From NCBI GenBank assembly GCA_001768515.1, contig MEOA01000002.1, positions 1 to 64,000 on the forward strand: a stretch of 64,000 bases of DNA, written 5' to 3'. The translations under genes were made by a program, and so were the position numbers. Of the stretch, positions 8,289 to 21,807 are shown piece after piece. The notes under the pieces were generated by a model, which saw nothing but the letters and a program-made list of their open reading frames with translations, did not search any database and was not told the DNA's origin. Numbering within the stretch: position 1 is the stretch's first letter; each line of letters opens with the position of its first letter. Source of the stretch: Bacteroidetes bacterium GWE2_42_24 (GTDB lineage Bacteria > Bacteroidota > Bacteroidia > Bacteroidales > TTA-H9).

Positions 8289-9509
<1,221 letters not shown>

Positions 9510-9527: not shown

Positions 9528-10682
9528 ATGAAAGATATTCAAATAAAAGAAGTTTTAACTGATAGCGAACTTAAGAAATTTGTAAGTTTTCCAATCCGGT
9601 TATACGCTGATAATCCTAACTATGTCCCCCCCATTATTGAGGACGAATTGCGAATTTTAAAAAGTAGTGAAAACCCGGTTTTCAAATATTGCAGGGTGAA
9701 GCTGTGGATTGCCATCGAAGGGAAAGAAGTTGTAGGCAGGGTAGCCGGAATCATCAATGAGGCATTCATTGACAAATGGGCTCGTCGTTATGCCCGATTT
9801 GGGTGGCTGGATTTTGTTGAGGATGAGGACGTGTCCAGGTGTTTGATAGAAGCCGTTGAAAAATGGGCTCTTGCCGAAGGGATGGAAGCGCTGAACGGTC
9901 CGCTTGGATTTACCGATTTCGATCCCGAAGGTATCCTTATAGAAGGCTTTAATGAAAAATCGACAATAGTCCAGCGTTACAATGCACCTTATTATATGAC
10001 CTACCTTGAAAGAGCCGGCTATATTAAGGATGCTGACTGGGTTGAATACCAAATAACCATCCCTGACCATGTTCCTCAGAAGTTTACACGAGCTTCAGAC
10101 TACCTGTTAAAAAAATATGGCTTAAGTGTAATAAAATTCAATAAGAAGGAAGAAATACTTCCTTACGTCAGAGAGGTATTTTCCATTATCAATGATATTT
10201 ACGGGTTGATGTATGGTTTCGTACCTATTACCAATGAGTTACGCGACTTTTACATTAGCAGGTACCTCCCATTCCTCGATCCCGAATTGATGGCCATTAT
10301 TGTTGATAAAGATAACAAGGTGGTTTCGTTCGGTGTTACGATGCCCTCCTTATCAGATGTGTTTAAAAAAGCCAACGGCAGCCTGACAAAATTAAAGGCA
10401 ATGGCTTTAACCGGACTGAAAACTAAAACAGATACCGTTGATATGTATTTCATTGGTGTTCGTCCGGATTATCTTAACAAAGGTTTGAGCGCTGTTTTGA
10501 TTAGTGAAATTGGTAAAAAACTAATTACCAGCGGTTATAAATACGCCGAAACCAATATGGAGTTTGAAAGCAATGAAGCTGTTCAGGCCCTATGGAAACA
10601 TTTCACTGCCCGTCGCCACAAACGTCGCCGTTGCTATCTGAAATATTTTATCAATAGTACCCGAATCGAAGATAACATTTGA
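9528..10682 (+). CDS. GNAT-fold acyltransferase, ceramide synthase candidate (copy 1)
   Basis: A 384-residue protein with a GNAT-like C-terminal half. Visible landmarks are NPNYVPP near residue 28, GRVAGIIN near 70, GPLGFTDFD near 125 and FIGVRPDYLNKGLS near 310, the last resembling the GNAT acetyl-CoA loop. The bacterial ceramide synthase described in Caulobacter is, as I recall, a GNAT-type protein of similar size encoded near serine palmitoyltransferase, so N-acylation of sphinganine or ketosphinganine is the best guess. It is a clear paralogue of the next gene. The C-terminus is rich in His, Arg and Lys (ARRHKRRR), which may contact membrane phosphates. No membrane segment is seen. Confidence 0.65.
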   Translation: MKDIQIKEVLTDSELKKFVSFPIRLYADNPNYVPPIIEDELRILKSSENPVFKYCRVKLWIAIEGKEVVGRVAGIINEAFIDKWARRYARFGWLDFVEDEDVSRCLIEAVEKWALAEGMEALNGPLGFTDFDPEGILIEGFNEKSTIVQRYNAPYYMTYLERAGYIKDADWVEYQITIPDHVPQKFTRASDYLLKKYGLSVIKFNKKEEILPYVREVFSIINDIYGLMYGFVPITNELRDFYISRYLPFLDPELMAIIVDKDNKVVSFGVTMPSLSDVFKKANGSLTKLKAMALTGLKTKTDTVDMYFIGVRPDYLNKGLSAVLISEIGKKLITSGYKYAETNMEFESNEAVQALWKHFTARRHKRRRCYLKYFINSTRIEDNI

Positions 10683-10692
10683 TAATTAAATT

Positions 10693-11820
10693 ATGGCCAT
10701 AGAAATCCGGGAGGTGACTTCAGGAAAGCATCTTCGTGAATTTATCCGTTTCCCGTACAGGCTTTATAAGGATAATCCGTACTGGGTTCCGCCACTCGAT
10801 TTTGATGAGAAATCAACATTGACCCATGGGAAGAACCCGGCCTTAAGTTTCTGCGATTTTAAGATGTGGATGGCCTATAAGGACAACCGACCGGTGGGGC
10901 GAATTGCAGGTATTATTAATCATAAAGCCAACGAAATCTGGCAGGAGAAACACGCCCGTTTTGGATGGATTGACTTTGACGATGATGAGGAAGTCTCGGC
11001 TTTACTCTTCAAAACTATTGAAGAGTGGGCTATAGCCCATAAGATGGAAGCTGTTCATGGCCCGCTGGGCTTTACTGATTTCGATAAGGAAGGGATGCTG
11101 ATCGAAGGCTTCAGTGAGCTTGGGACGATGGCCACTAACTATAATCACCCATATTATCCTGTTCACACTGAATTGGCTGGTTATCAAAAAGACACTGACT
11201 GGATTGAATTTGAGGTGAAAGTACCTGAAGGGGTTCCTGAAAAGCACAGGAGAATTTCAGAATTAGCACTTAAACGCAACAACCTGACTCTTTATACAGC
11301 TAAGACATCCAAACAGATACTCCCCTATGCCTCTCAAATTTTTGATTTAATAAACCTGGCCTATAAGGATTTGTATGGATTTGTACCGGTGACTGACAAA
11401 CAAAAGGAATATTATACAAAAACATACTTCAGTTTTATCAAAGCAGAATATGTTCCCATCATATTAAACAAAGATAACAAGGTTGTTGGTTTTGGAATAA
11501 CCATGCCATCATTGAGTAAAGCACTTCAAAAGGCCAAAGGGAAACTATTTCCTTTCGGATTTTTCTATTTATTAAAGGCCATGCGGAATAACGACCGTGT
11601 CGATTTTTACCTGATGGCTGTAGCTCCAGAACTCCAGAACAAGGGGGTAAACGCTGCCTTGTTTACCGATTTGATCCCAAAATACATTAATGCCCGGGTA
11701 AAATTTGCCGAGACCAATATCGAGCTTGAGGACAATCAAAAAGTAACCAGTCAATGGGAGTATTTTGACCGGCGTATGCATAAAAAAAGAAGAGCTTATA
11801 TTAAGCACCTCCTTAAGTAA
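10693..11820 (+). CDS. GNAT-fold acyltransferase, ceramide synthase candidate (copy 2)
   Basis: A 375-residue paralogue of the upstream gene, 10 nt after it. It shares NPYWVPP (residues 28-34), GRIAGIIN (69-76), GPLGFTDFD (123-131), the C-terminal GNAT-like segment with LQNKGVNAALF, and a basic tail (RRMHKKRRA). The two proteins are similar along their whole length but not identical, so this is an old duplication rather than a recent one. One may acylate the sphingoid base and the other a different substrate or chain length, or they may act as a pair. It is the last gene of the unit that begins with serine palmitoyltransferase. Confidence 0.65.
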   Translation: MAIEIREVTSGKHLREFIRFPYRLYKDNPYWVPPLDFDEKSTLTHGKNPALSFCDFKMWMAYKDNRPVGRIAGIINHKANEIWQEKHARFGWIDFDDDEEVSALLFKTIEEWAIAHKMEAVHGPLGFTDFDKEGMLIEGFSELGTMATNYNHPYYPVHTELAGYQKDTDWIEFEVKVPEGVPEKHRRISELALKRNNLTLYTAKTSKQILPYASQIFDLINLAYKDLYGFVPVTDKQKEYYTKTYFSFIKAEYVPIILNKDNKVVGFGITMPSLSKALQKAKGKLFPFGFFYLLKAMRNNDRVDFYLMAVAPELQNKGVNAALFTDLIPKYINARVKFAETNIELEDNQKVTSQWEYFDRRMHKKRRAYIKHLLK

Positions 11821-11979: not shown

Positions 11980-13020
11980 ATGGAAAAGAAAAAGCTTATC
12001 TACCTCGACCGCAACGAGAATCACTACGGTCCTGCACCACGTTGTTTCAAAGTGCTTAGCAAACCTAATTTCAACAAACTTAGTGCTTATTCACGAGATT
12101 TCTCACGTGGCATCAAAAGCAGACTATCTGAAAGGCTTGCACTTGACTTCGGGATTGAAGAGAGTCGCGTATTGTTGGGATACGGTGGTGAAGATATTCT
12201 TAAACAAATAGTACATTGTCAGCTTCAAAAAGGTGATAAAATTTTGATCCCGGCCTATTCATGGTGGTATTATAAAGCCATTGCAGAAGAGGTTGAAGGT
12301 GTTAAAGTAGAATATCCTTTAACTAAAGGAGAAAAGACATTCTACTATGATGTAGATGAAATGATTCGCCTTGTAAAGACCGAAAAGCCAAAAATGATAC
12401 TAGTGGCATCGCCAAACAATCCAACGGGAAATGCCATTGATTTGAGCGAGTTAAAACGTTTTCTGAATTCTACCGGTGATGCAGTAGTAGTAGTTGATGA
12501 GGCCTATACCGTTTTTGCCAATCCCGACACTTCTTATGTAAAGGAGCTTGTAAATAATTACCACAATCTTTTAGTAGTCAGAACATTTAGCAAATACTAT
12601 GCACTTGCGGGTATTCGTATCGGGTTTGCCCTCATGGGAACGAATCTGGCTAAATTCTCACGATTCTCGGCTCGTTACCTCGGCTATAACAGGCTCTCAG
12701 AACGTATCGCCCTTGCGGCCCTCGATTCTGATGATTACTACAGCGAGATGAGGGTTAAAATGCTGGACGATATAGAGATGTTTTTTAATGAATTCAGTGC
12801 CTTACCGGGCTTTACCCCATATAAATCACTGGCCAATTTCATCCTTGTTGAAATTCCCCAGGAAATCAAGGTTCCGCTGAAGAACCATTTACTCAGCAAA
12901 GGTCTTGTGATTAAATTTATGGATGAAGATAACCTTCGGAGCCATGTCCGCATCTCGATTGGTACTCAGGAGGAGAACCGCATGTTGATGGATGCCGTGA
13001 AAGAGTTTGTGAATAGTTAG
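11980..13020 (+). CDS. HisC/CobD-like PLP-dependent enzyme, fold type I
   Basis: A 346-residue fold-type I PLP enzyme. The PLP lysine is K205 in RTFSKYYALAG, preceded by NNPTG (146-150) and the pocket Asp in VVDEAY (D173); R213 and a C-terminal arginine (HVRIS) suit a phosphate- or carboxylate-bearing substrate. General resemblance is to histidinol-phosphate aminotransferase and to CobD, the threonine-phosphate decarboxylase. No other histidine or cobalamin genes are near. The next genes are a CDP-alcohol phosphotransferase and a LicC-like cytidylyltransferase, so I infer that this enzyme prepares an amino-alcohol phosphate for a lipid head group, for example by decarboxylating phosphoserine or phosphothreonine. 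Simple transamination remains possible. Confidence 0.7.
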   Translation: MEKKKLIYLDRNENHYGPAPRCFKVLSKPNFNKLSAYSRDFSRGIKSRLSERLALDFGIEESRVLLGYGGEDILKQIVHCQLQKGDKILIPAYSWWYYKAIAEEVEGVKVEYPLTKGEKTFYYDVDEMIRLVKTEKPKMILVASPNNPTGNAIDLSELKRFLNSTGDAVVVVDEAYTVFANPDTSYVKELVNNYHNLLVVRTFSKYYALAGIRIGFALMGTNLAKFSRFSARYLGYNRLSERIALAALDSDDYYSEMRVKMLDDIEMFFNEFSALPGFTPYKSLANFILVEIPQEIKVPLKNHLLSKGLVIKFMDEDNLRSHVRISIGTQEENRMLMDAVKEFVNS

Positions 13021-13023
13021 CAA

Positions 13024-13908
13024 ATGGGATTATCATGGCTTACCGAGTATAAGAATTCCCTAAAGGCGTTGGAAATAGAGGAGTTTTTCGATCTCGTTTT
13101 CTACAGGCCTCTCGGATTTCTGGTAGTGAAAGCGGTGTCAAGAACAGCTATCACACCTAATCAGTTAACATACACAGCCTTATTTTTTGGCGTTATTGCC
13201 GGAATTTCCTTTTCCTTTGGTACGAAAGAAGCATTTGTACTCGGAGGCCTTTCCTATCTGCTTTTTGATGTATTTGATTGCAGCGACGGCCAGCTTGCCC
13301 GTTTGAAAAGAAACGGCACGCTTACCGGCAGAATTATCGACGGTGTGGCAGATTATCTGGCAGGCATAGCTGTATATATTGGAATTTGTTTTGGTTATGT
13401 TGCAAACACCGAGAACCGGTTATTATGGTTTATACTTTTGATCGTTGCCGCTGGAAGTCACATTGTCCATTCAATGATTACCGACTTCTACCGGCAACGG
13501 TTTATCAGGTATGGATTTGGAGAGAAGAGTGCTTTGGGAAACAGCGATGCACCCTACATAGATGAACTAATGCGTCTTAGAAAAGAAGGCGGATCAAAAT
13601 TTAACAGGGTAATACTCTCAATTTATCTGGCCTATTCATCCCGGCAATCAAAGATAACACGCAATGAATCAGTAACTGAATCTAAATTCACTGTTACACC
13701 CGGGGTGTATTATCATAATAATGCGGCGATTATGAGGTCGTGGACTTTTCTGGGACCGACAACTCAAATTACATTTCTTGTAATTACCGCCCTGTTTTTT
13801 CGTCCTGATATATATATCCTTGGAATGATTTTTGGATTTAACTTATTGGCGATTATACTGTTCATCTGCCAACAGGTAATTGATCGCCGGCTGGCCAAAA
13901 TTGTATAA
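13024..13908 (+). CDS. CDP-alcohol phosphotransferase, complete motif
   Basis: A 294-residue integral membrane enzyme that moves a phospho-alcohol between a CDP carrier and an acceptor lipid alcohol. The family signature D-x2-DG-x2-AR-x8-G-x3-D-x3-D is complete: D85, D88, G89, A92, R93, G102, D106, D110. About six hydrophobic segments are visible. The N-terminus (EEFFDLVFYRPLG) and the segment after the motif (DFYRQRF) are shared with the second copy at 17842, so the two are paralogues. It starts 3 nt after the PLP enzyme and ends 3 nt before a LicC-like cytidylyltransferase, so it most likely uses the CDP-alcohol that enzyme makes, with ceramide or diacylglycerol as acceptor. Confidence 0.85.
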   Translation: MGLSWLTEYKNSLKALEIEEFFDLVFYRPLGFLVVKAVSRTAITPNQLTYTALFFGVIAGISFSFGTKEAFVLGGLSYLLFDVFDCSDGQLARLKRNGTLTGRIIDGVADYLAGIAVYIGICFGYVANTENRLLWFILLIVAAGSHIVHSMITDFYRQRFIRYGFGEKSALGNSDAPYIDELMRLRKEGGSKFNRVILSIYLAYSSRQSKITRNESVTESKFTVTPGVYYHNNAAIMRSWTFLGPTTQITFLVITALFFRPDIYILGMIFGFNLLAIILFICQQVIDRRLAKIV

Positions 13909-13911
13909 TTT

Positions 13912-14652
13912 ATGATTAAAGTTGTAATCCTTGCTGCCGGAATGGCTCGTCGTCTTCAACCACTTACCAATTCAACGCCTAAGTGTTTACTGCCGGTCGG
14001 GGATAAAACACTTATTGACCGGGCACTTATATCTATTAAAGCTGCCGGCCTTTCACATGTTGTGATTGTGACAGGCTTTGAGGCAGATCAAATCAAAAAA
14101 CATTGTCAATCGCATTATTCAGATATAAACTTCGAGTGGATTCACAATGAACGCTTCGAAGAAACCAACAACATCTATTCGCTCTGGCTAACTAAAGAAA
14201 CGATGAGCGGACATAGTCTGTTATTGCTCGACAGCGATATCATATTTCATCATCAGATACTTACAAACCTATTGGAGAGCAATTTTGAAAATTGTCTTGC
14301 TTTACGGGAATCTGACAAGCTTGGTGATGAAGAAATTAAAGTCACGGTTGATGAAGAAGGATTTGTAAAAGCCATCAGTAAAGTTGTTGACCCAAAACAG
14401 GCGATCGGTGAATCGCTTGGAATAGAATTATTCGGAATTGGGCTGACTTACAAACTTTTCAGATGTGTAAATGAACTCATCGTGAAACAAGGGCGTGATA
14501 ATGACTTTTATGAAGTTGCGTTTGAAAAGATTATCTTTGAAGGCGGTCAGATAAAGCCTGTTTCAGTAGGCTCACTACCCTGTATGGAAATCGATACAGC
14601 CTCAGATCTTCAGGCAGCCTTTCCTCTGTCCATTCAACTTGATCATGAATAA
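13912..14652 (+). CDS. LicC-like phospho-alcohol cytidylyltransferase
   Basis: A 246-residue nucleotidyltransferase. It opens with VVILAAGMARRLQPLT and PKCLLPVG, the nucleotide-binding loop. It then has ERFEETNNIYSLW, a phrase typical of choline-phosphate and related phospho-alcohol cytidylyltransferases (LicC type), the metal site LLLLDSD near residue 104, and a C-terminal MEIDTASDL. The expected reaction is CTP plus a phospho-alcohol giving a CDP-alcohol. The substrate could be ethanolamine phosphate, aminopropanol phosphate, choline phosphate or an aminophosphonate; no phosphoenolpyruvate mutase is in the window, which argues against a local phosphonate route. It is packed tightly after the phosphotransferase. 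Confidence 0.8.
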   Translation: MIKVVILAAGMARRLQPLTNSTPKCLLPVGDKTLIDRALISIKAAGLSHVVIVTGFEADQIKKHCQSHYSDINFEWIHNERFEETNNIYSLWLTKETMSGHSLLLLDSDIIFHHQILTNLLESNFENCLALRESDKLGDEEIKVTVDEEGFVKAISKVVDPKQAIGESLGIELFGIGLTYKLFRCVNELIVKQGRDNDFYEVAFEKIIFEGGQIKPVSVGSLPCMEIDTASDLQAAFPLSIQLDHE

Positions 14653-14663
14653 TAGCTGAGCAA

Positions 14664-15488
14664 ATGACACAAGCACTCCTAACGATAGCTGTCATCGGAT
14701 TTGTTGCCGGATTTATCTTTTCGATGCCTGTGGCTGGCCCTATCAGTATTCTGGTAACAAGTAATGCACTGCGTGGAAGATTGAATTTCTGCATCCATGC
14801 AGCCTTGGGGGCTTCCATTGCAGATCTCGTGTATGTTTTCCTTGCTGTATTGGGTTTGACGGAATTATATAATTTGTACCGACCCGTTATCCCCTATATT
14901 CTTATTGTTGGCGCCATTTTTTTGTTTTTTTTAGGATTAAAAATCGCCAGAACCCAATTGGATATCGAAGAAAAGGAGAGACAGCTAAATCCTGATGCCG
15001 GCAAGAAAAAAAACAACGGATTTGTAACAGGCTTTCTGCTTAACTTTCTTAACCCTACCCTTTTTTTAGGCTGGCTTACCAGTTCATTTATCACCATCAG
15101 TTTTGTGGCCTATATGGGTTTTAACACGGGTGGCTTAGACAAGATGTTGACAAAGAATGTCGAAAACATCAATAAAACTACAGTATCTGGTGACTCAGCA
15201 CAATTAATATCAACTGATTACGTCTTCATAGATAAAGCAATCCAACGTGAAGAAATTCCACCCAAGGTGAGTGCTGATCCGAGTTTCCCATTTATTATCA
15301 GTGGCTTGTATGCCTTCTTCCTTTCTCTTGGTAGTGTCCTTTGGTTTTATCTCTTTTCGGTGTTTCTTGTACACAACCGCAAGCGGATTAAATTACAATA
15401 TCTTTCATGGCTTGTGAATGGACTGGGGATATTGTTGTGTGGCTTCGGCGTGCTGCTGGCCTACAAGGCGATTTGTAGCTTTATATAG
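14664..15488 (+). CDS. LysE-family membrane exporter with a central insertion
   Basis: A 274-residue inner-membrane protein of the LysE translocator family. The N-terminal half has the family pattern (GFIFSMPVAGPISILV, then a Gly-rich helix GASIADLVY), and NFLNPTLFLGW matches the second conserved helix. Between about residues 155 and 210 there is a polar stretch with no membrane character, longer than usual for this family and likely a loop outside the bilayer. The family exports amino acids and similar small molecules. It starts 11 nt after the cytidylyltransferase, so it may export a by-product or a head-group precursor; that link rests only on position. Confidence 0.75.
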   Translation: MTQALLTIAVIGFVAGFIFSMPVAGPISILVTSNALRGRLNFCIHAALGASIADLVYVFLAVLGLTELYNLYRPVIPYILIVGAIFLFFLGLKIARTQLDIEEKERQLNPDAGKKKNNGFVTGFLLNFLNPTLFLGWLTSSFITISFVAYMGFNTGGLDKMLTKNVENINKTTVSGDSAQLISTDYVFIDKAIQREEIPPKVSADPSFPFIISGLYAFFLSLGSVLWFYLFSVFLVHNRKRIKLQYLSWLVNGLGILLCGFGVLLAYKAICSFI

Positions 15489-15600: not shown

Positions 15601-16296
15601 ATGAAGCTTTTAATAATAGCAGCAGGCGAAGGCAGCCGGCTTAGGCAAGAGGGAGTATTAACTCCAAAACCATTAATTGAAATTGATGGTATTCCATTAA
15701 TAGAAAGACTTATACAGCAGGCGATTGAACATTCTTTTTCCGAAGTTTGCATTATAATTAATGATTTATACCATGAGGTAAAAACTTTCATTACAACTAA
15801 AAGTTTTCAGATTCCAATTCAACTGATAGTAAGATCTACCACCAGTTCTCTCCACAGTTTTTACGAATTACGCCATTTCATTAATAATGAATCATTTGTA
15901 CTTACAACAGTTGACCCGGTTTATAAAACTGAAGCTTTCTCCGGTTACCTGAATTATGTTGATGAAAACGATAATCCACTAGGGATAATGGCACTTACTC
16001 AGTATGTTGATGATGAAAAACCTCTCTGGGTACTTACTGACGCGAAGATGAGTATCATGGCCTATCAATCCGAACAAGGAGATGCTGTATATGTGAGTGC
16101 AGGCTTTTACTTCTTCAAACCAGAAGTAATCAAATTTCTGGAGATAGCCGTTTCTCTTAATATGTCTAAAATGAGATCTTTCCAACAATTTCTGCTTGAT
16201 AAAGGCAATCTGCTTTTAGGTTTTGACATGGGAAAGGTAATTGATATTGATCATGTTAATGACATTATTGCTGCCGGGGAAATGCTTAAAGAATAA
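15601..16296 (+). CDS. Sugar-/polyol-phosphate nucleotidyltransferase
   Basis: A 231-residue nucleotidyltransferase with LLIIAAGEGSRL and PKPLIEIDG at the N-terminus and a catalytic Asp in LTTVDPVY near residue 102. It lacks the NNIYSLW phrase of the 13912 protein and the two are only distantly alike, so they should have different substrates. Because a myo-inositol-phosphate synthase lies in the next unit, I infer inositol phosphate as the substrate, giving CDP-inositol as in the archaeal and Thermotoga di-myo-inositol-phosphate pathway; other sugar phosphates are possible. It has its own promoter and a T-rich stretch after the stop, so it may be monocistronic. Confidence 0.7.
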   Translation: MKLLIIAAGEGSRLRQEGVLTPKPLIEIDGIPLIERLIQQAIEHSFSEVCIIINDLYHEVKTFITTKSFQIPIQLIVRSTTSSLHSFYELRHFINNESFVLTTVDPVYKTEAFSGYLNYVDENDNPLGIMALTQYVDDEKPLWVLTDAKMSIMAYQSEQGDAVYVSAGFYFFKPEVIKFLEIAVSLNMSKMRSFQQFLLDKGNLLLGFDMGKVIDIDHVNDIIAAGEMLKE

Positions 16297-16325
16297 TTTT
16301 TTTTGTTTTCTTAAAAACTATTTAC

Positions 16326-16352
16326 ACTTTAAAAGTTTTTTTAGTACTTTTG
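16326..16352 (+). promoter_or_regulatory. Promoter and possible operator of the TetR-led unit
   Basis: TACTTTTG at 16345-16352 is a -7 match, 20 nt upstream of the TetR gene. A small palindrome, ACTTT-A-AAAGT (16326-16336), sits in the spacer region, and AAAAGT/ACTTTT (16331-16336 and 16346-16351) forms a second inverted pair overlapping the -7 box. Such placement would suit autorepression by the TetR protein. The tract is A/T-rich, so chance palindromes are easy. Confidence 0.4.
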
Positions 16353-16371
16353 TATCGCAAAACAAAATTGA

Positions 16372-16980
16372 ATGGATATCAAGGCGAGGATAATTGAGAC
16401 GGCTATTAAACTTTTTTTGAAATTCGGAATCAGAGGGGTTACCATGGATATGATTGCCAAGGAAGCTGGCGTTTCGAAGCGAACGATCTATGAGAACTTT
16501 AAAGACAAAACCGAGGTTTTGGAGACTTGTCTTTTGCATATGGATCGTTTAAAAAACGAGGAAATGATTAATTTGAAAACCGTAGGTGGAAACATTATCG
16601 ATACCATATACCGATTAGCTAATCATCACATAAAAGACTTGCAGTCTATCAATCCATTATTCTTTCATGATTTGCAAAAAATCTATCCGAAACTCTGGAA
16701 AAACTCCCTTGACAAGAAAGACAAAGATGGACTATCAGAAATCCATAAACTATTCAGAAAAGGCATTAATGAAGGGCTAATAAGATCAGACATCCACCTT
16801 GAAGTAGCAAGCAGAGTCATGCTTGAACACTTTAAGCTGGCATTGACCCTTGAATTACAACGAAACCGGGGTTACGACAGAAATATACTGTTCGAGAACA
16901 TTATACTGAATTATTTCAGAGGGATTGCCACAGAAAAGGGGCTTGATATTCTAAAGAGCTACCAGGCTACGACACAATAA
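16372..16980 (+). CDS. TetR-family transcriptional regulator
   Basis: A 202-residue regulator with an N-terminal TetR helix-turn-helix (IIETAIKLFLKFGIRGVTM, then IAKEAGVSKRTIYENFKDK) in residues 6-50 and a helical ligand-binding C-terminal domain. The length is typical. It is the first gene of the unit that continues with ATP-grasp, CDP-alcohol phosphotransferase, flippase-like protein, HAD hydrolase and inositol-phosphate synthase, with small gaps or overlaps throughout. I infer that it regulates this unit and itself. TetR proteins in lipid loci often sense acyl-CoA or a lipid, but the ligand cannot be read from the sequence. Confidence 0.92.
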   Translation: MDIKARIIETAIKLFLKFGIRGVTMDMIAKEAGVSKRTIYENFKDKTEVLETCLLHMDRLKNEEMINLKTVGGNIIDTIYRLANHHIKDLQSINPLFFHDLQKIYPKLWKNSLDKKDKDGLSEIHKLFRKGINEGLIRSDIHLEVASRVMLEHFKLALTLELQRNRGYDRNILFENIILNYFRGIATEKGLDILKSYQATTQ

Positions 16981-16993
16981 AAACAGAATAGCA

Positions 16994-17845
16994 ATGAACT
17001 TAAAATTTGCCGCAATAGCAAGAGGACAGCGATATTCCCCAAATCATATCGGAAACGATGCCCAGATTTTAAAACTCACCATCAGGCACATTGAGGAAGC
17101 CGGGCATTCGGTTCAGGTATATGATGAAGATAGTATCACACCTGAACTTGTTTCGGAGAATTACATTTTCAATATGATCAGAGGGCGCTATGCCCTTACA
17201 GTACTTCAGCGACTTGAAGGACAAGGTGCTCTGGTGATTAACCCAACAAGTGGCGTTAAAAACTGTTACCGTTCACGATTAGCCAAACTGCTGCCAAAGG
17301 CTGGAATTCCTGTTCCTGCCGGAATATGTGTTTCAACTTCAACTATGAAGTTTGACCTTCCGATTAAAGCCAACCCATTTACCGCTTGGGTAAAACGGGG
17401 TGATGTGCATGCAATTCACCGTGAAGATATTACACAAGTTTATAGCGAAAATGAACTCTATGGTATTCTTAGGGAATACCACAGAAGGGGAATAGAAGAG
17501 GCAGTTGTTCAGGAGCATGTTGCAGGCCCTGTTGTTAAGTTCTATGCGGTGAGGGGAAGCGGGTTTTTCCATTGGTATTTTCATGAAGGAACCGGCAAAG
17601 CTGAATTTAACACAAAACAACTGGAAGATATTGCAGAAAAGTGCGCAAATACATTGAACGTGGACATTTATGGAGGTGATGCCGTAATCGGAAGCGATGG
17701 AGCAATATCTATTATCGATCTTAACGACTGGCCTAGTTTCGCACCTGTCAGGGATGTTGCTTCAAAACACATCGCTGAATTAATTATCGGAAAGGCCGTT
17801 GATCACGAAATAAAAAGCCCTTCATTTAAGCAAAAAGCAGGATGA
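16994..17845 (+). CDS. ATP-grasp (RimK-like) enzyme in the inositol-lipid unit
   Basis: A 283-residue protein with ATP-grasp character. It has the N-terminal FNMIRG segment, a central AWVKRGDVHA strand, the QEHVAGPVVKFYAVRG hinge and a C-terminal metal site IIDLNDWPSF (D242 and N244 by count). This is the arrangement of RimK-type ligases, which join an amine to an activated carboxylate; the inositol polyphosphate kinase ITPK has the same fold. Both readings are interesting beside inositol-phosphate synthase: amino-acyl decoration of a head group, or phosphorylation of an inositol. It overlaps the next gene by 4 nt, so the two are translationally coupled. Confidence 0.75.
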   Translation: MNLKFAAIARGQRYSPNHIGNDAQILKLTIRHIEEAGHSVQVYDEDSITPELVSENYIFNMIRGRYALTVLQRLEGQGALVINPTSGVKNCYRSRLAKLLPKAGIPVPAGICVSTSTMKFDLPIKANPFTAWVKRGDVHAIHREDITQVYSENELYGILREYHRRGIEEAVVQEHVAGPVVKFYAVRGSGFFHWYFHEGTGKAEFNTKQLEDIAEKCANTLNVDIYGGDAVIGSDGAISIIDLNDWPSFAPVRDVASKHIAELIIGKAVDHEIKSPSFKQKAG

Positions 17846-18771
17846 AACAAACTGTTAGTCAGACATTAAAATCATCAGATACAGAGGAATTTATCGATAT
17901 TTATTTCTATCGAAGGATCGGCTATTGGGTAGCCAGAGCATCTGCCGCTGTAGGTATTACACCAAATGCCATAACAATTGTGAGCATTTTCTGGGGAATT
18001 CTGGCAGGTCACCTGATGATGTATGAAGATATTTGGATCAACCTGCTGGGCGTACTTTCGTTAATCATCGCCAATACCCTTGATAGTGCCGATGGCCAAT
18101 TGGCAAGGATGACAAACAACAAAACACGGCTTGGACGTATCCTTGACGGACTGGCAGGGAACATCTGGTTTGTCAGTATTTACATCCACCTTGGATTAAG
18201 GATGCAAAATGAGGGAATGGGTAGCTGGATATGGTTGTTGGGAGCTTTTACCGGTCTATGCCATGTTTTTCAGGCAGCTATTGCTGATTACTACCGCAAC
18301 GGGCACCTCTTTTTTATTAAAGGAGAAGGAGGCAGTGAATTTGACAATTCACAATCCATGCAGAAGCTATCAAAATCCCTGTCATGGAAGAAGGAATTTT
18401 TCTACAAGCTTTTTATGTCCTCTTATGTAAATTACACCAGGGAACAGGAATTATTTACCCGTCATATGGGGCTGTTGATTACCAAGGTACGTGATGCCTA
18501 CCCTTCGGGTGTTCCACTTTGGCTTAGTACTGGTTTCGGGACTGATAACAAACCCCTGATGAAATACACCAATATACTCTCATTCAATACACGTGCCATT
18601 GCCCTCTTTGTAGCTGTACTGTCCGGTATTCCCATTGGTTATTGGATCTTCGAATTTACCGTTCTGAATATTGTTTTGATTTATATGGTTTGGCAACAGG
18701 AAAAAATCAGCATGAGATACATTAATCTGGTTGATAATAATATAGCAACAACTGATGGGAATGAAGAATAA
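17842..18771 (+). CDS. CDP-alcohol phosphotransferase lacking the last motif Asp
   Basis: A 309-residue membrane protein, paralogue of the 13024 gene. Its signature reads D81, D84, G85, A88, R89, G98, D102, then G106 where the family has its eighth residue, an Asp regarded as the catalytic base. The codon at that place is GGG in an otherwise intact frame. The rest of the protein is well preserved, with about six membrane segments and a shared N-terminus (EEFIDIYFYRRIG). Position next to inositol-phosphate synthase suggests inositol head-group transfer, to ceramide or diacylglycerol. Either another residue serves as base, or the protein is a non-catalytic partner of its paralogue. Confidence 0.8.
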   Translation: MKQTVSQTLKSSDTEEFIDIYFYRRIGYWVARASAAVGITPNAITIVSIFWGILAGHLMMYEDIWINLLGVLSLIIANTLDSADGQLARMTNNKTRLGRILDGLAGNIWFVSIYIHLGLRMQNEGMGSWIWLLGAFTGLCHVFQAAIADYYRNGHLFFIKGEGGSEFDNSQSMQKLSKSLSWKKEFFYKLFMSSYVNYTREQELFTRHMGLLITKVRDAYPSGVPLWLSTGFGTDNKPLMKYTNILSFNTRAIALFVAVLSGIPIGYWIFEFTVLNIVLIYMVWQQEKISMRYINLVDNNIATTDGNEE

Positions 18772-19750
18772 AACTACAAACCTGATTTTTCTCATGCTTG
18801 GAGGTGCTATCCTGATTTTTCTCCTCTGGGACTTCGGTTTCGAAAACATTTGGTCAAATGTTCATAAGATTGGATGGTGGCTTGCTCCTATTACAGGAAT
18901 TTGGCTGATAATATATATACTCAATGCCCAGGCGTGGAAAGTAATTATAGGAAAAGATAATACTGTGAATTTCTTTCGGCTGTTATCCTTAAAGATCACA
19001 GGCTTTTCCATTAACTACCTCACACCAGTTGTTGGCCTGGCAGGTGAACCCTGGAAAATACTTAACATAAAAAATGAAATTGGAGTTGAAAAAGCCTCTT
19101 CTTCTATCATTCTGTACAACATGATGCATATTTTGTCGCATTTCTATTTTTGGGTAACAGCAGTAATCTTATTTCTTGTAACAAATATTCCTGAAGTAGT
19201 CACTACTCTTGTATTAGGATTCGTGTTGGCAATATTGGTCAGCCTAATTGCAGTATTTTATATTTGGCATTCAAAGGGCGTGGTATATTCATTACTCAGA
19301 TTTCTTCGGGTAATACCTGGTCTTAAAGGTCTGGTCATCAAGATAGAATCAAAAGAAGACTCGTTAAAAAACATCGAAAATCAGGTTATAGAACTATACA
19401 CTCATCGTAGAAAATCATTCTATCTCTCATTAAGTCTTGAATATATTGCTCGTCTGGTTGCTTCCCTCGAATTCTATTTTATTATGAGGGCAATATCTGT
19501 GGATATCTCCATTCTGGAGGCTTTATATATAAATGCAGCATCCTCTTTATTGGCAAATCTGTTTTTCTTTATCCCACTGCAACTTGGGACTCGTGAAGGA
19601 AGTTTATATATTGTTTATGAGAGTCTTAAATATACACCGGCTTTAGGCGTTTTTGTCAGTCTGGTGACAAGAATCAGAGAGTTTTTCTGGATCTTTATCG
19701 GTTTAATCCTGCTAAAAATAGGAACACCCGCCCAATATAGAACGAAATGA
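18755..19750 (+). CDS. Flippase-like membrane protein (LPG synthase TM / UPF0104 family)
   Basis: A 331-residue polytopic membrane protein with about eight hydrophobic segments and the family patterns YLTPVVGLAGEPWK near residue 88 and PLQLGTREGS near 275. This matches the membrane part of lysylphosphatidylglycerol synthase and the HpnL-like putative lipid transporters. There is no C-terminal aminoacyl-transferase domain. The ORF overlaps the phosphotransferase by 17 nt and the HAD gene by 4 nt. I infer movement of the finished lipid, or of an intermediate, across the inner membrane. Direct evidence for transport in this family is thin. Confidence 0.8.
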   Translation: MGMKNKTTNLIFLMLGGAILIFLLWDFGFENIWSNVHKIGWWLAPITGIWLIIYILNAQAWKVIIGKDNTVNFFRLLSLKITGFSINYLTPVVGLAGEPWKILNIKNEIGVEKASSSIILYNMMHILSHFYFWVTAVILFLVTNIPEVVTTLVLGFVLAILVSLIAVFYIWHSKGVVYSLLRFLRVIPGLKGLVIKIESKEDSLKNIENQVIELYTHRRKSFYLSLSLEYIARLVASLEFYFIMRAISVDISILEALYINAASSLLANLFFFIPLQLGTREGSLYIVYESLKYTPALGVFVSLVTRIREFFWIFIGLILLKIGTPAQYRTK

Positions 19751-20463
19751 TAATGAGAATGAAGCCTGGAGCTATCATATTTGATTTTGGAGGAACCATT
19801 GACACCAATGGGGTTCATTGGAGTGAGAAGTTCTGGGACAGCTATATTTATACCAATGTACCGGTAACAAAGACAGACTATGAAGAAGCGTATGTATCGG
19901 CTGGTGATAAAATGTTGCGGGGAATCGTAAAGCCAACATTTTCTTTTAAGCAAACAATTGAGGTACAAATAGACCTGCAATTAAATTGGCTGGTTAGTAA
20001 AGAGATTATTGATGCTGAAAGTGTTGACCAATACCTGACATCCATTTTGAATTACTGCTACGAAGATGTCATCAGAACGACCTCGTTTTTAAGGCCTTTA
20101 TTGGAAAAACTGCACGAACATTATCCGATAGCACTGGTTTCTAACTTTTATGGAAATATTGGAAATGTATTAAAAGAATTTCAGATCGATCATTGCTTTG
20201 ATCGTGTGATCGACTCAGCTGTAGTTGGAATCAGGAAGCCCGACCCTGATATCTTTCTTATGGGAGTTAACTTGCTGGGTGTACATCCTTCTGACACATT
20301 AGTTATTGGTGACTCCTACGACAGGGATATTGAGCCTGCTTCAAAAGCAGGATGCAAAACCGCCTGGTTAAAAGGAAGAAGCTGGAGAATGCAACCCGAA
20401 GGTGAGTTGGCAGATATTACAATTAACAATCTTCAGGAATTAAGTTTAATTCTTGAATTCTAA
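19747..20463 (+). CDS. HAD-superfamily hydrolase with DxG instead of DxD
   Basis: A 238-residue HAD enzyme. Motif I reads DFGGT: the nucleophile D13 is present but the usual second Asp is Gly15. Motif II (LVSNF), motif III (RKPDPDIF) and motif IV (IGDSYDRD) are intact, with an alpha-helical cap of about 80 residues between motifs I and II. HAD phosphatases normally need the second Asp as acid/base; members lacking it include phosphonoacetaldehyde hydrolase (DxAGT) and haloacid dehalogenase (DxYGT). Located between the flippase-like gene and inositol-phosphate synthase, it could dephosphorylate an inositol-phosphate lipid, but the motif makes ordinary phosphatase chemistry uncertain. Its start overlaps the upstream stop (ATGA). 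Confidence 0.78.
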   Translation: MIMRMKPGAIIFDFGGTIDTNGVHWSEKFWDSYIYTNVPVTKTDYEEAYVSAGDKMLRGIVKPTFSFKQTIEVQIDLQLNWLVSKEIIDAESVDQYLTSILNYCYEDVIRTTSFLRPLLEKLHEHYPIALVSNFYGNIGNVLKEFQIDHCFDRVIDSAVVGIRKPDPDIFLMGVNLLGVHPSDTLVIGDSYDRDIEPASKAGCKTAWLKGRSWRMQPEGELADITINNLQELSLILEF

Positions 20464-20490
20464 ATATTTAATCTTTAAATAATTATTATC

Positions 20491-21807
20491 ATGAATCCAA
20501 AAATAAGTAAACCCACTGGAAAACTTGGAGTTCTGATCGTAGGGATGAATGGCGCAGTAGCCACTACTTTTTTGTCGGGCACCATGGCTGTAAGAAAAGG
20601 CAAAGGTGTTCCGGTAGGTTCTCTAACCCAAATGGCTACAATTCGTATTGGGAAACGTGCCGATAACAATTTTCCAAAGATCAAAGACTTTCTTCCACTT
20701 TATGACCTGAAAAACATGGTTTTCGGAGGTTGGGATATCAGAGAAGAAAATGCTTATACCGCAGCAAAGATTGCCGAAGTGCTTAACGATAAAGATCTGG
20801 ATAACGTACGTGAAGAGTTGGAATCACTAGTCCCAATGAAGGCTGTCTTTGATCAGAATTTTGTCAAACGACTTAGCGGAACATGGACAAAAGAAGCCTC
20901 TACAAAAATGGAACTTGTTGAGATGCTACGCAAGGACATTAGAGACTTCAAAGCGAAGAACAATCTTGCTGATCTGGTAACAATCTGGTGCGGCTCAACC
21001 GAAGTGTTTATCCCGATGGAGGAAGTCCACAGTTCAATCGAAAAATTTGAAGAAGGATTGCTGAACAATCATCCTTCCATTTCACCCAGTATGATGTATG
21101 CATGGGCTACATTGAAAGAGAATGTGCCATTTATTAATGGGGCTCCTAACCTGACTGTTGACATGGGTGCCATTTTTGAACTTGCTGAGAAAATGCATCT
21201 TCCTATCGCCGGGAAAGACTTCAAAACTGGTCAGACCATGGTAAAAACGGTTATTGCTCCAATGCTGAAAGTAAGAATGCTTGGACTCGATGGCTGGTTT
21301 TCAACTAATATTCTTGGCAACCGTGACGGAGAAGTCCTCGATGATCCGGGATCCTTTAAGACTAAGGAGGAGAGCAAACTTTCGGTCATAGATAGCATTC
21401 TGCAGCCCAAACTCTACCCGGAACTTTATAAGGATTACTATCATAAAGTAAGAATTAATTATTATCCACCGCGCAAGGATAATAAAGAAGGCTGGGACAA
21501 TATTGATATCTTTGGATGGCTGGGTTATCCTATGCAGATAAAAATAGATTTTTTATGCCGCGATTCCATTTTGGCTGCTCCAATTGTATTAGACCTTGTA
21601 TTATTGATGAATCTGTCTCAACGAGTTGGTTTTTACGGAATTCAGGATTGGTTATCATTCTATTTCAAGAGCCCGATGCACTCTCCCAACGTTGTTCCCG
21701 AGCATGATTTATTTATTCAACATGTAAAATTGAAAAACACCATGCGGGAAATAATGAATGAGGAGCCTGTAACCCACTTGGATGAAAAATCAAAGATTGA
21801 TCGATAG
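20491..21807 (+). CDS. myo-Inositol-1-phosphate synthase
   Basis: A 438-residue NAD-dependent cyclase-isomerase that turns glucose 6-phosphate into myo-inositol phosphate. The NAD-binding start LGVLIVGMNGAVATT, WCGSTEVF, MYAWATLKENVPFINGAPN, the active-site GKDFKTGQTMVKT and NILGNRDG are all recognisable inositol-phosphate synthase landmarks. The length fits the bacterial and archaeal form. It is the last gene of the TetR-led unit, 27 nt after the HAD gene, and is followed by a strong terminator hairpin. It supplies the head group for the inositol-lipid branch inferred here; this gene is the key reason for that inference. Confidence 0.95.
   Translation: MNPKISKPTGKLGVLIVGMNGAVATTFLSGTMAVRKGKGVPVGSLTQMATIRIGKRADNNFPKIKDFLPLYDLKNMVFGGWDIREENAYTAAKIAEVLNDKDLDNVREELESLVPMKAVFDQNFVKRLSGTWTKEASTKMELVEMLRKDIRDFKAKNNLADLVTIWCGSTEVFIPMEEVHSSIEKFEEGLLNNHPSISPSMMYAWATLKENVPFINGAPNLTVDMGAIFELAEKMHLPIAGKDFKTGQTMVKTVIAPMLKVRMLGLDGWFSTNILGNRDGEVLDDPGSFKTKEESKLSVIDSILQPKLYPELYKDYYHKVRINYYPPRKDNKEGWDNIDIFGWLGYPMQIKIDFLCRDSILAAPIVLDLVLLMNLSQRVGFYGIQDWLSFYFKSPMHSPNVVPEHDLFIQHVKLKNTMREIMNEEPVTHLDEKSKIDR

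Follow-up and report, generated by a model that had tools for sequence, protein, structure and literature searches.

A conserved three-gene unit proposed to build an amino-alcohol head group for sphingolipids in Bacteroidales

A three-gene unit beside a ceramide pathway

The first 64,000 nucleotides of contig MEOA01000002.1 of Bacteroidetes bacterium GWE2_42_24 (hereafter the window) carry three consecutive + strand genes, here called the trio. They encode a pyridoxal phosphate (PLP) enzyme (11980..13020, 346 amino acids (aa)), a cytidine diphosphate (CDP)-alcohol phosphotransferase (transferase 1; 13024..13908, 294 aa) and a cytidylyltransferase (13912..14652, 246 aa). A previous sequence-only reading had proposed this gene set as a possible complete path to a ceramide phosphoethanolamine-type lipid, and its open reading frames (ORFs) and 3-nt gaps were reproduced here. 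The trio is a conserved functional unit and not a chance run of genes. With moderate confidence, it is interpreted as a self-contained Kennedy-type (CDP-alcohol) module that places an amino-alcohol phosphate head group on ceramide. Next to a single ceramide pathway, the window encodes two CDP-alcohol sets in parallel. One, for inositol, has been put forward in the literature before; the other is the trio, which is real, conserved and without prior assignment. The source genome is 4.32 Mb in size and 97% complete.

Conservation of the trio

In a profile-guided search of the named genomes, 302 proteins related to the PLP enzyme were recovered. Of these, the best 80 were retained; they come from Bacteroidales, Ignavibacteria, Calditrichota, Aminicenantes, Acidobacteriota and two bins labelled Desulfobacterales and Proteobacteria. 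The nearest named locus, L090, from a Bacteroidales metagenome-assembled genome (MAG), encodes a PLP enzyme that is 84% identical. Linkage was counted at the 70 PLP loci with at least 3 kb of downstream sequence, within 5 kb and on the same strand. A transferase gene lies near the PLP gene in 58/70 loci (immediately beside it in 49/70) and a cytidylyltransferase gene in 47/70. This linkage, which extends over several phyla, identifies the trio as a unit, as the sequence-only reading had supposed.

Association with sphingolipid synthesis

Serine palmitoyltransferase, the first enzyme of sphingolipid synthesis, is encoded at 8319..9509 (+) and matches the NCBIfam equivalog NF047600 with 687.6 bits against a cut-off of 640. 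Only proteins scoring over this curated cut-off were counted as true serine palmitoyltransferases, and the co-occurrence test was applied in Bacteroidales. In a sample of the order, the enzyme is present in 56/198 genomes, including 4/4 of those that carry the trio transferase (chance ∼0.006 by simple counting, with three of the four belonging to one family). Of 15 named records tested under the labels Bacteroidales, Bacteroidetes or Bacteroidota, 13 encode it; in the two others, L099 and L109, homologues of 473-479 bits lie beside a GNAT gene, as in Ignavibacteria. Counted together, 16 distinct Bacteroidales-type trio genomes, which are related and not independent trials, possess a true serine palmitoyltransferase, and in the window, L071, L072 and L090 the trio lies inside a sphingolipid block. 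The suggested tie to sphingolipids is supported. The serine palmitoyltransferase of G296 closely resembles the solved enzyme 3a2b without being identical to it. Co-occurrence in Ignavibacteria was set aside as uninformative, as 224/296 genomes of the phylum have a homologue (E<=1e-130).

The exchange of the last gene provides further evidence. In the Desulfobacterales and Proteobacteria bins (L126 and L144), the PLP and cytidylyltransferase genes are followed directly by a gene for a CDP-glycerol-type (TagF-like) transferase (L126:3617-4693 and L144:11802-12851; PF04464, tested on the L144 copy). No serine palmitoyltransferase was found in either at E<=1e-100, both being MAGs of unstated completeness. 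Because the exchange matches the absence of sphingolipid genes, the first two enzymes probably form a module supplying a CDP-activated group (CDP-X), and the third gene product attaches X, in Bacteroidales at least probably to ceramide by means of the CDP-alcohol transferase. Such a modular supply could serve lipid synthesis or a TagF-like transferase, and in L126 and L144 the same CDP-amino alcohol may modify a surface polymer or glycan.

The cytidylyltransferase and transferase 1

The likeness of the third protein (Pfam NTP_transf_3/NTP_transferase) to LicC and PntC is the best evidence for an activated small amine. Its profile matches LicC with 104 bits and PntC with 100 bits over nearly the full length, and the next structure scores 53.5; the cytidylyltransferase of the inositol set (15601..16296) shows no LicC/PntC preference. 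The structural model (predicted local distance difference test (pLDDT) 96.7) is closest in fold to PntC (Z 31.3), followed by LicC (28.5) and sugar enzymes (<=27.8), and judged by the modelled fold alone, LicC and the sugar enzymes are not clearly separated. Since its nearest relatives by profile are LicC and PntC, X is probably a small amine, and the protein is described here as a putative LicC/PntC-like CTP:(amino-alcohol phosphate) cytidylyltransferase. In the NNIYSLW motif (residues 86-92; 14167..14187, +), N86, N87, S90 and L91 are invariant in 26 orthologues. R14, K24, D107, D109, E226 and D228, which are presumably residues of the N-terminal GxxxRLxPLT...K loop and of the Asp/Glu metal site, are invariant in the same set.

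Transferase 1 matches PF01066 (CDP-OH_P_transf) with 47 bits against a cut-off of 22, and its substrates would be a CDP-amino alcohol and ceramide. The catalytic motif D85-x2-D88-G89-x2-A92-R93-x8-G102-x3-D106-x3-D110 (13276..13353, +) is invariant in 25 orthologues. The NNIYSLW mark and the full phosphotransferase motif, both noted in the sequence-only reading, are confirmed, and its LicC-type assignment is supported.

The PLP enzyme

The PLP enzyme (Pfam Aminotran_1_2), the proposed maker of the amino-alcohol phosphate, belongs to the HisC/CobD superfamily and forms a clade of its own. It scores 234.4 bits against the HisC model TIGR01141 (cut-off 276.55) and 139.3 bits against the CobD model TIGR01140 (cut-off 290.55). 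The source genome has no HisC over the cut-off, and the trio enzyme is its best match to that model (234 bits). No HisD was detected there at E<=0.001, a search that was positive in 13/14 control genomes. HisC membership was rejected on the score and the lack of HisD. CobD membership was rejected on the score, on the absence of CbiB among 12 genomes carrying the trio or its transferase, and on missing signature residues, and CobD was kept as an analogy. In a maximum-likelihood tree, the trio PLP enzymes group together with 100/100 support, and the stem of their clade is long (2.54). A separate 100/100 clade holds the CobD proteins, among them 1lc5 and that of L192, which is followed by an ORF resembling CbiB; the HisC groups also stand apart.

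All PLP-site residues of HisC (Asn157, Asp184, Tyr187, Lys214 and Arg222 in E. coli numbering) are invariant in 40 orthologues, the Schiff-base lysine being K205 (12592..12594, +), which aligns to E. coli HisC K214. Tyr20 and Arg322 of HisC, which we take to be substrate-side residues, are not retained: in 40/40 members of the clade the N-terminal segment with Tyr20 is lost, Lys312 replaces Arg322, Arg11 replaces Ala36 and Trp95 replaces Tyr110. Trp95 lies in the clade-typical SWWYYK motif (residues 94-99; 12259..12276, +), of which W95, W96, Y97 and Y98 are invariant in the 40 orthologues. The clade's own conserved basic residues, Arg11, Arg232 and Lys312, together with the general Arg324, would suit a substrate bearing both phosphate and carboxylate, without proving it.

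At HisC columns 187, 243 and 339, CobD and the Sulfurospirillum enzyme SMUL_1544 have in common Phe, Trp and Arg, where the trio clade has Tyr, Leu and Gly (40/40). L195, a CobD-like protein under the cut-off, has Leu at column 339. With a clade apart from CobD and these active-site residues missing, decarboxylation of phosphoserine or phosphothreonine is not upheld as originally stated. Because the residues common to CobD and SMUL_1544 are absent, the alignment makes phosphoserine decarboxylation by the trio enzyme possible but not favoured.

Against solved structures, the trio profile scores 182 bits for HisC, 131.6 for SMUL_1544 and 79 for CobD. The structural model (pLDDT 93.5) has a fold about equally near HisC (Z 33-40), CobD (37) and SMUL_1544 (34).

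A separate observation concerns the Porphyromonas gingivalis structure PDB 3fkd, deposited as an L-threonine-O-3-phosphate decarboxylase. It has His at the position of the PLP Schiff-base Lys, so this annotation looks doubtful.

Proposed pathway

In the proposed pathway, the PLP enzyme would take the place of a kinase and convert a central metabolite into a small amino alcohol in phosphorylated form. In its favoured form this step would be the decarboxylation of phosphoserine to ethanolamine phosphate, and the main alternative would be the transamination of dihydroxyacetone phosphate (DHAP) to serinol phosphate. The LicC/PntC-like enzyme, as its family strongly suggests, would then use CTP to form the CDP-amino alcohol and pyrophosphate. 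The membrane transferase, in which the catalytic motif is present, would finally transfer the phospho-amino alcohol to ceramide from the neighbouring serine palmitoyltransferase pathway. CMP would be released, and the lipid formed would be a ceramide phospho-amino alcohol, with ceramide phosphoethanolamine as the most probable individual compound. Ethanolamine takes first rank as the amino head group already known from sphingolipids of Bacteroidetes (PMC8791184). Given the module, its chances are about even; serinol and the sum of all unnamed groups are each markedly less probable, and aminopropanol is lower again. Of the complete amino-alcohol path put forward earlier, the conserved unit, the LicC/PntC-like enzyme and the sphingolipid tie are supported, but the decarboxylation as stated is not.

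Several observations weigh against this pathway. In the order sample, 52/56 genomes with serine palmitoyltransferase lack the trio transferase; because most such relatives are without the trio (4/56 have the transferase), it cannot be how ceramide phosphoethanolamine is generally made. In genomes outside Bacteroidales, the homologues of serine palmitoyltransferase score under the curated cut-off, so diacylglycerol could be the acceptor there. The nearest solved relatives of the PLP enzyme are HisC aminotransferases. It keeps the HisC-type Tyr176 and Gly328, where CobD and SMUL_1544 have Phe, and SMUL_1544 and most CobDs have Arg, and it is without the Trp of CobD and SMUL_1544.

Alternative explanations

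The same module could have an aminotransferase as its first enzyme, converting DHAP to serinol phosphate and leading through CDP-serinol to a serinol-phosphate sphingolipid. Such a DHAP aminotransferase is equally close to HisC in its chemistry: the HisC substrate is an acetol phosphate, of which DHAP is the smallest analogue, and Cj1437 of Campylobacter jejuni performs this transamination (PMC11800397). The clade also retains the HisC-type Tyr176, Ser204 and Gly328 and not the CobD residues. The HisC pocket is changed too, however, through the loss of Tyr20 and the Arg322-to-Lys replacement in 40/40 members, and we know of no serinol-phosphate sphingolipid. This alternative is less likely than the main reading, yet it is a serious rival and deserves more weight than the others. 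A broader proposal is similarly tentative: an unrecognised PLP clade, spread over Bacteroidota, Ignavibacteria, Calditrichota, Acidobacteriota and others, would make a new sphingolipid head group such as serinol phosphate, and in bacteria without sphingolipids the same CDP-X would serve another transferase class, perhaps for a cell-surface polymer. Phosphothreonine could also be the starting point for ceramide phospho-1-amino-2-propanol or a different amino-alcohol lipid. CobD (1lc5) sets a precedent within the superfamily, but with the separate clade, the missing signature residues and a CobD score of 139 bits against 290.55 this route is improbable.

The remaining alternatives concern the acceptor and the neighbouring chemistry. 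The CDP-alcohol phosphotransferase family uses both ceramide and diacylglycerol, and the Ignavibacteria trio does not adjoin serine palmitoyltransferase, so that the trio might instead supply phosphatidylethanolamine, or a related lipid, by a second route of the CDP-ethanolamine type. A PssA-like CDP-alcohol enzyme (L191:6419-7186, identified by eye) is already encoded in the genome, and the trio is therefore probably not needed for phosphatidylethanolamine. Together with the 16 genomes bearing true serine palmitoyltransferase and the four sphingolipid blocks described above, this makes a diacylglycerol acceptor doubtful, somewhat more so than the serinol variant. A PntC-style 2-aminoethylphosphonate sphingolipid would accord with the cytidylyltransferase fold, which is nearest to the PntC-AEPT structure. 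The PLP enzyme is of HisC type and not the class-V transaminase of PntC, and no phosphoenolpyruvate (PEP) mutase was found over the cut-off in 12 trio- or transferase-bearing genomes (sole match 20 bits, in G134), so this phosphonate route is very unlikely. Finally, the PLP enzyme might be the organism's histidinol-phosphate aminotransferase with incidental neighbours, as its rank among HisC-model matches would allow. The sub-threshold score, the lack of HisD in a 97% complete genome, the separate clade and the conserved linkage leave this idea close to refuted.

Neighbouring genes

In the window, the block runs from serine palmitoyltransferase through two GNAT genes, the trio and a LysE-type transporter to the alternative inositol-lipid genes. 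The entire block is retained in G020 and G134 with 43-83% protein identity, and also in L090 within the extent of the gene table. The GNAT-family proteins (9528..10682 and 10693..11820, both +) are paralogues with weak matches to PF00583; the first adjoins serine palmitoyltransferase. In most of the genomes examined, a GNAT-like gene of ∼370 aa adjoins serine palmitoyltransferase or its homologue, a pattern seen in Bacteroidota, Ignavibacteria and Calditrichota (L183-L186, L188-L189, L247-L250). It is a candidate ceramide N-acyltransferase, present in tandem copies in the window. In G012, an NAD-dependent epimerase-like protein (PF01370; L182:2651-3646) adjoins serine palmitoyltransferase and GNAT and is possibly a ketosphinganine or ketoceramide reductase.

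A LysE-type transporter, encoded at 14664..15488 (+; PF01810) in the window, often accompanies the trio: in 18/70 loci such a gene lies no more than 5 kb from the PLP gene. It may help to move the lipid or one of its precursors. In G012, a LysE-type gene (L182:1119-1961) lies near serine palmitoyltransferase rather than the trio. Other neighbours, named by eye, mostly belong to generic families (PGK/GAPDH, DUF192, enoyl-CoA hydratase, polyphosphate kinase) and were rejected as head-group clues. A short-chain dehydrogenase/reductase (SDR) adjoining the trio in L070 looked by eye like a ketosphinganine reductase, but NCBIfam gave generic SDR matches only. Tandem CDP-alcohol transferases occur at L074:9663-11391 and in L079 (G369, G450), with no PLP or cytidylyltransferase genes nearby.

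Downstream, the inositol set is proposed to make the inositol counterpart lipid. It comprises, all on the + strand, the second cytidylyltransferase (15601..16296; PF00483), proposed to be of inositol-phosphate type and kept with inositol-phosphate synthase in relatives; an ATP-grasp-like protein (16994..17845; class assigned by eye, no Pfam match); CDP-alcohol phosphotransferase 2 (17842..18771; PF01066); an LPG_synthase_TM membrane protein (18755..19750; PF03706, 113 bits); a HAD hydrolase (19747..20463; TIGR01509/TIGR01549 over the cut-off); and myo-inositol-phosphate synthase (20491..21807; PF07994, 344 bits). A TetR regulator lies between the second cytidylyltransferase and the ATP-grasp-like gene. 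In many relatives the latter recurs within the alternative inositol-lipid clusters.

Significance and comparison with known systems

Ethanolamine phosphoceramide is abundant in Bacteroides outer-membrane vesicles, and its route in Bacteroides had not been elucidated as of 2022 (PMC8791184), which for this genus agrees with the earlier statement that no gene set for ceramide phosphoethanolamine is firmly assigned. The trio, a kinase-free route through a PLP enzyme, a cytidylyltransferase and a transferase, is a three-gene candidate for one bacterial way to amino-alcohol sphingolipids, and it offers a candidate function for a large PLP clade that scores as HisC-like. It does not settle the route of Bacteroides itself, because most relatives bearing serine palmitoyltransferase lack the trio. 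What is new is most probably a CDP-alcohol pathway with a PLP enzyme in the place of the kinase.

A close parallel is the putative alternative inositol-lipid cluster of Bacteroidetes, which the passages of PMC9246714 considered here describe as a nucleoside triphosphate (NTP) transferase, a CDP-alcohol phosphatidyltransferase, a HAD protein and an inositol-phosphate synthase. Window genes 15601-21807 fit this make-up, with all four components together; the ATP-grasp-like protein is not mentioned in those passages. Like the trio, this cluster pairs a cytidylyltransferase bearing a LicC-like motif with a CDP-alcohol transferase, but it lacks a PLP enzyme, inositol is its proposed head group, and its transferase is a distant paralogue with 32% identity to transferase 1.

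For the first step, the comparison is with other PLP enzymes. Cj1436 and Cj1437 of C. jejuni belong to the HisC-like superfamily. They make ethanolamine phosphate by decarboxylation of serine phosphate and serinol phosphate by transamination of DHAP, respectively (PMC11800397), but their products go to a capsule amide without CTP activation or a lipid, and they are likened to the trio enzyme by reaction and not by sequence. SMUL_1544 (6oux), a proposed ethanolamine-phosphate source for norpseudo-B12 (PMC4585668), has the same fold and superfamily and is the nearest decarboxylase-type structure to the trio profile; it differs in serving cobamides and in the Phe, Trp and Arg described above.

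For activation, the phosphocholine cytidylyltransferase LicC (1jyk) and the 2-aminoethylphosphonate cytidylyltransferase PntC (6pd1) are the best sequence and fold matches of the trio enzyme, at about 22% identity. LicC acts downstream of choline kinase, and in PntC the cytidylyltransferase is joined with a class-V transaminase in a fusion protein (6pd1 title).

For the last step, the ceramide phosphoethanolamine synthase of Drosophila uses CDP-ethanolamine and ceramide. This animal Golgi enzyme likewise belongs to the CDP-alcohol phosphotransferases and shares their catalytic motif with the trio enzyme (PMC9550178), and a BLAST search with it against B. thetaiotaomicron gave no match (PMC8791184). 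Because a CDP-alcohol phosphotransferase carrying the same motif makes ceramide phosphoethanolamine in Drosophila, the chemistry of the trio's last step has a precedent.

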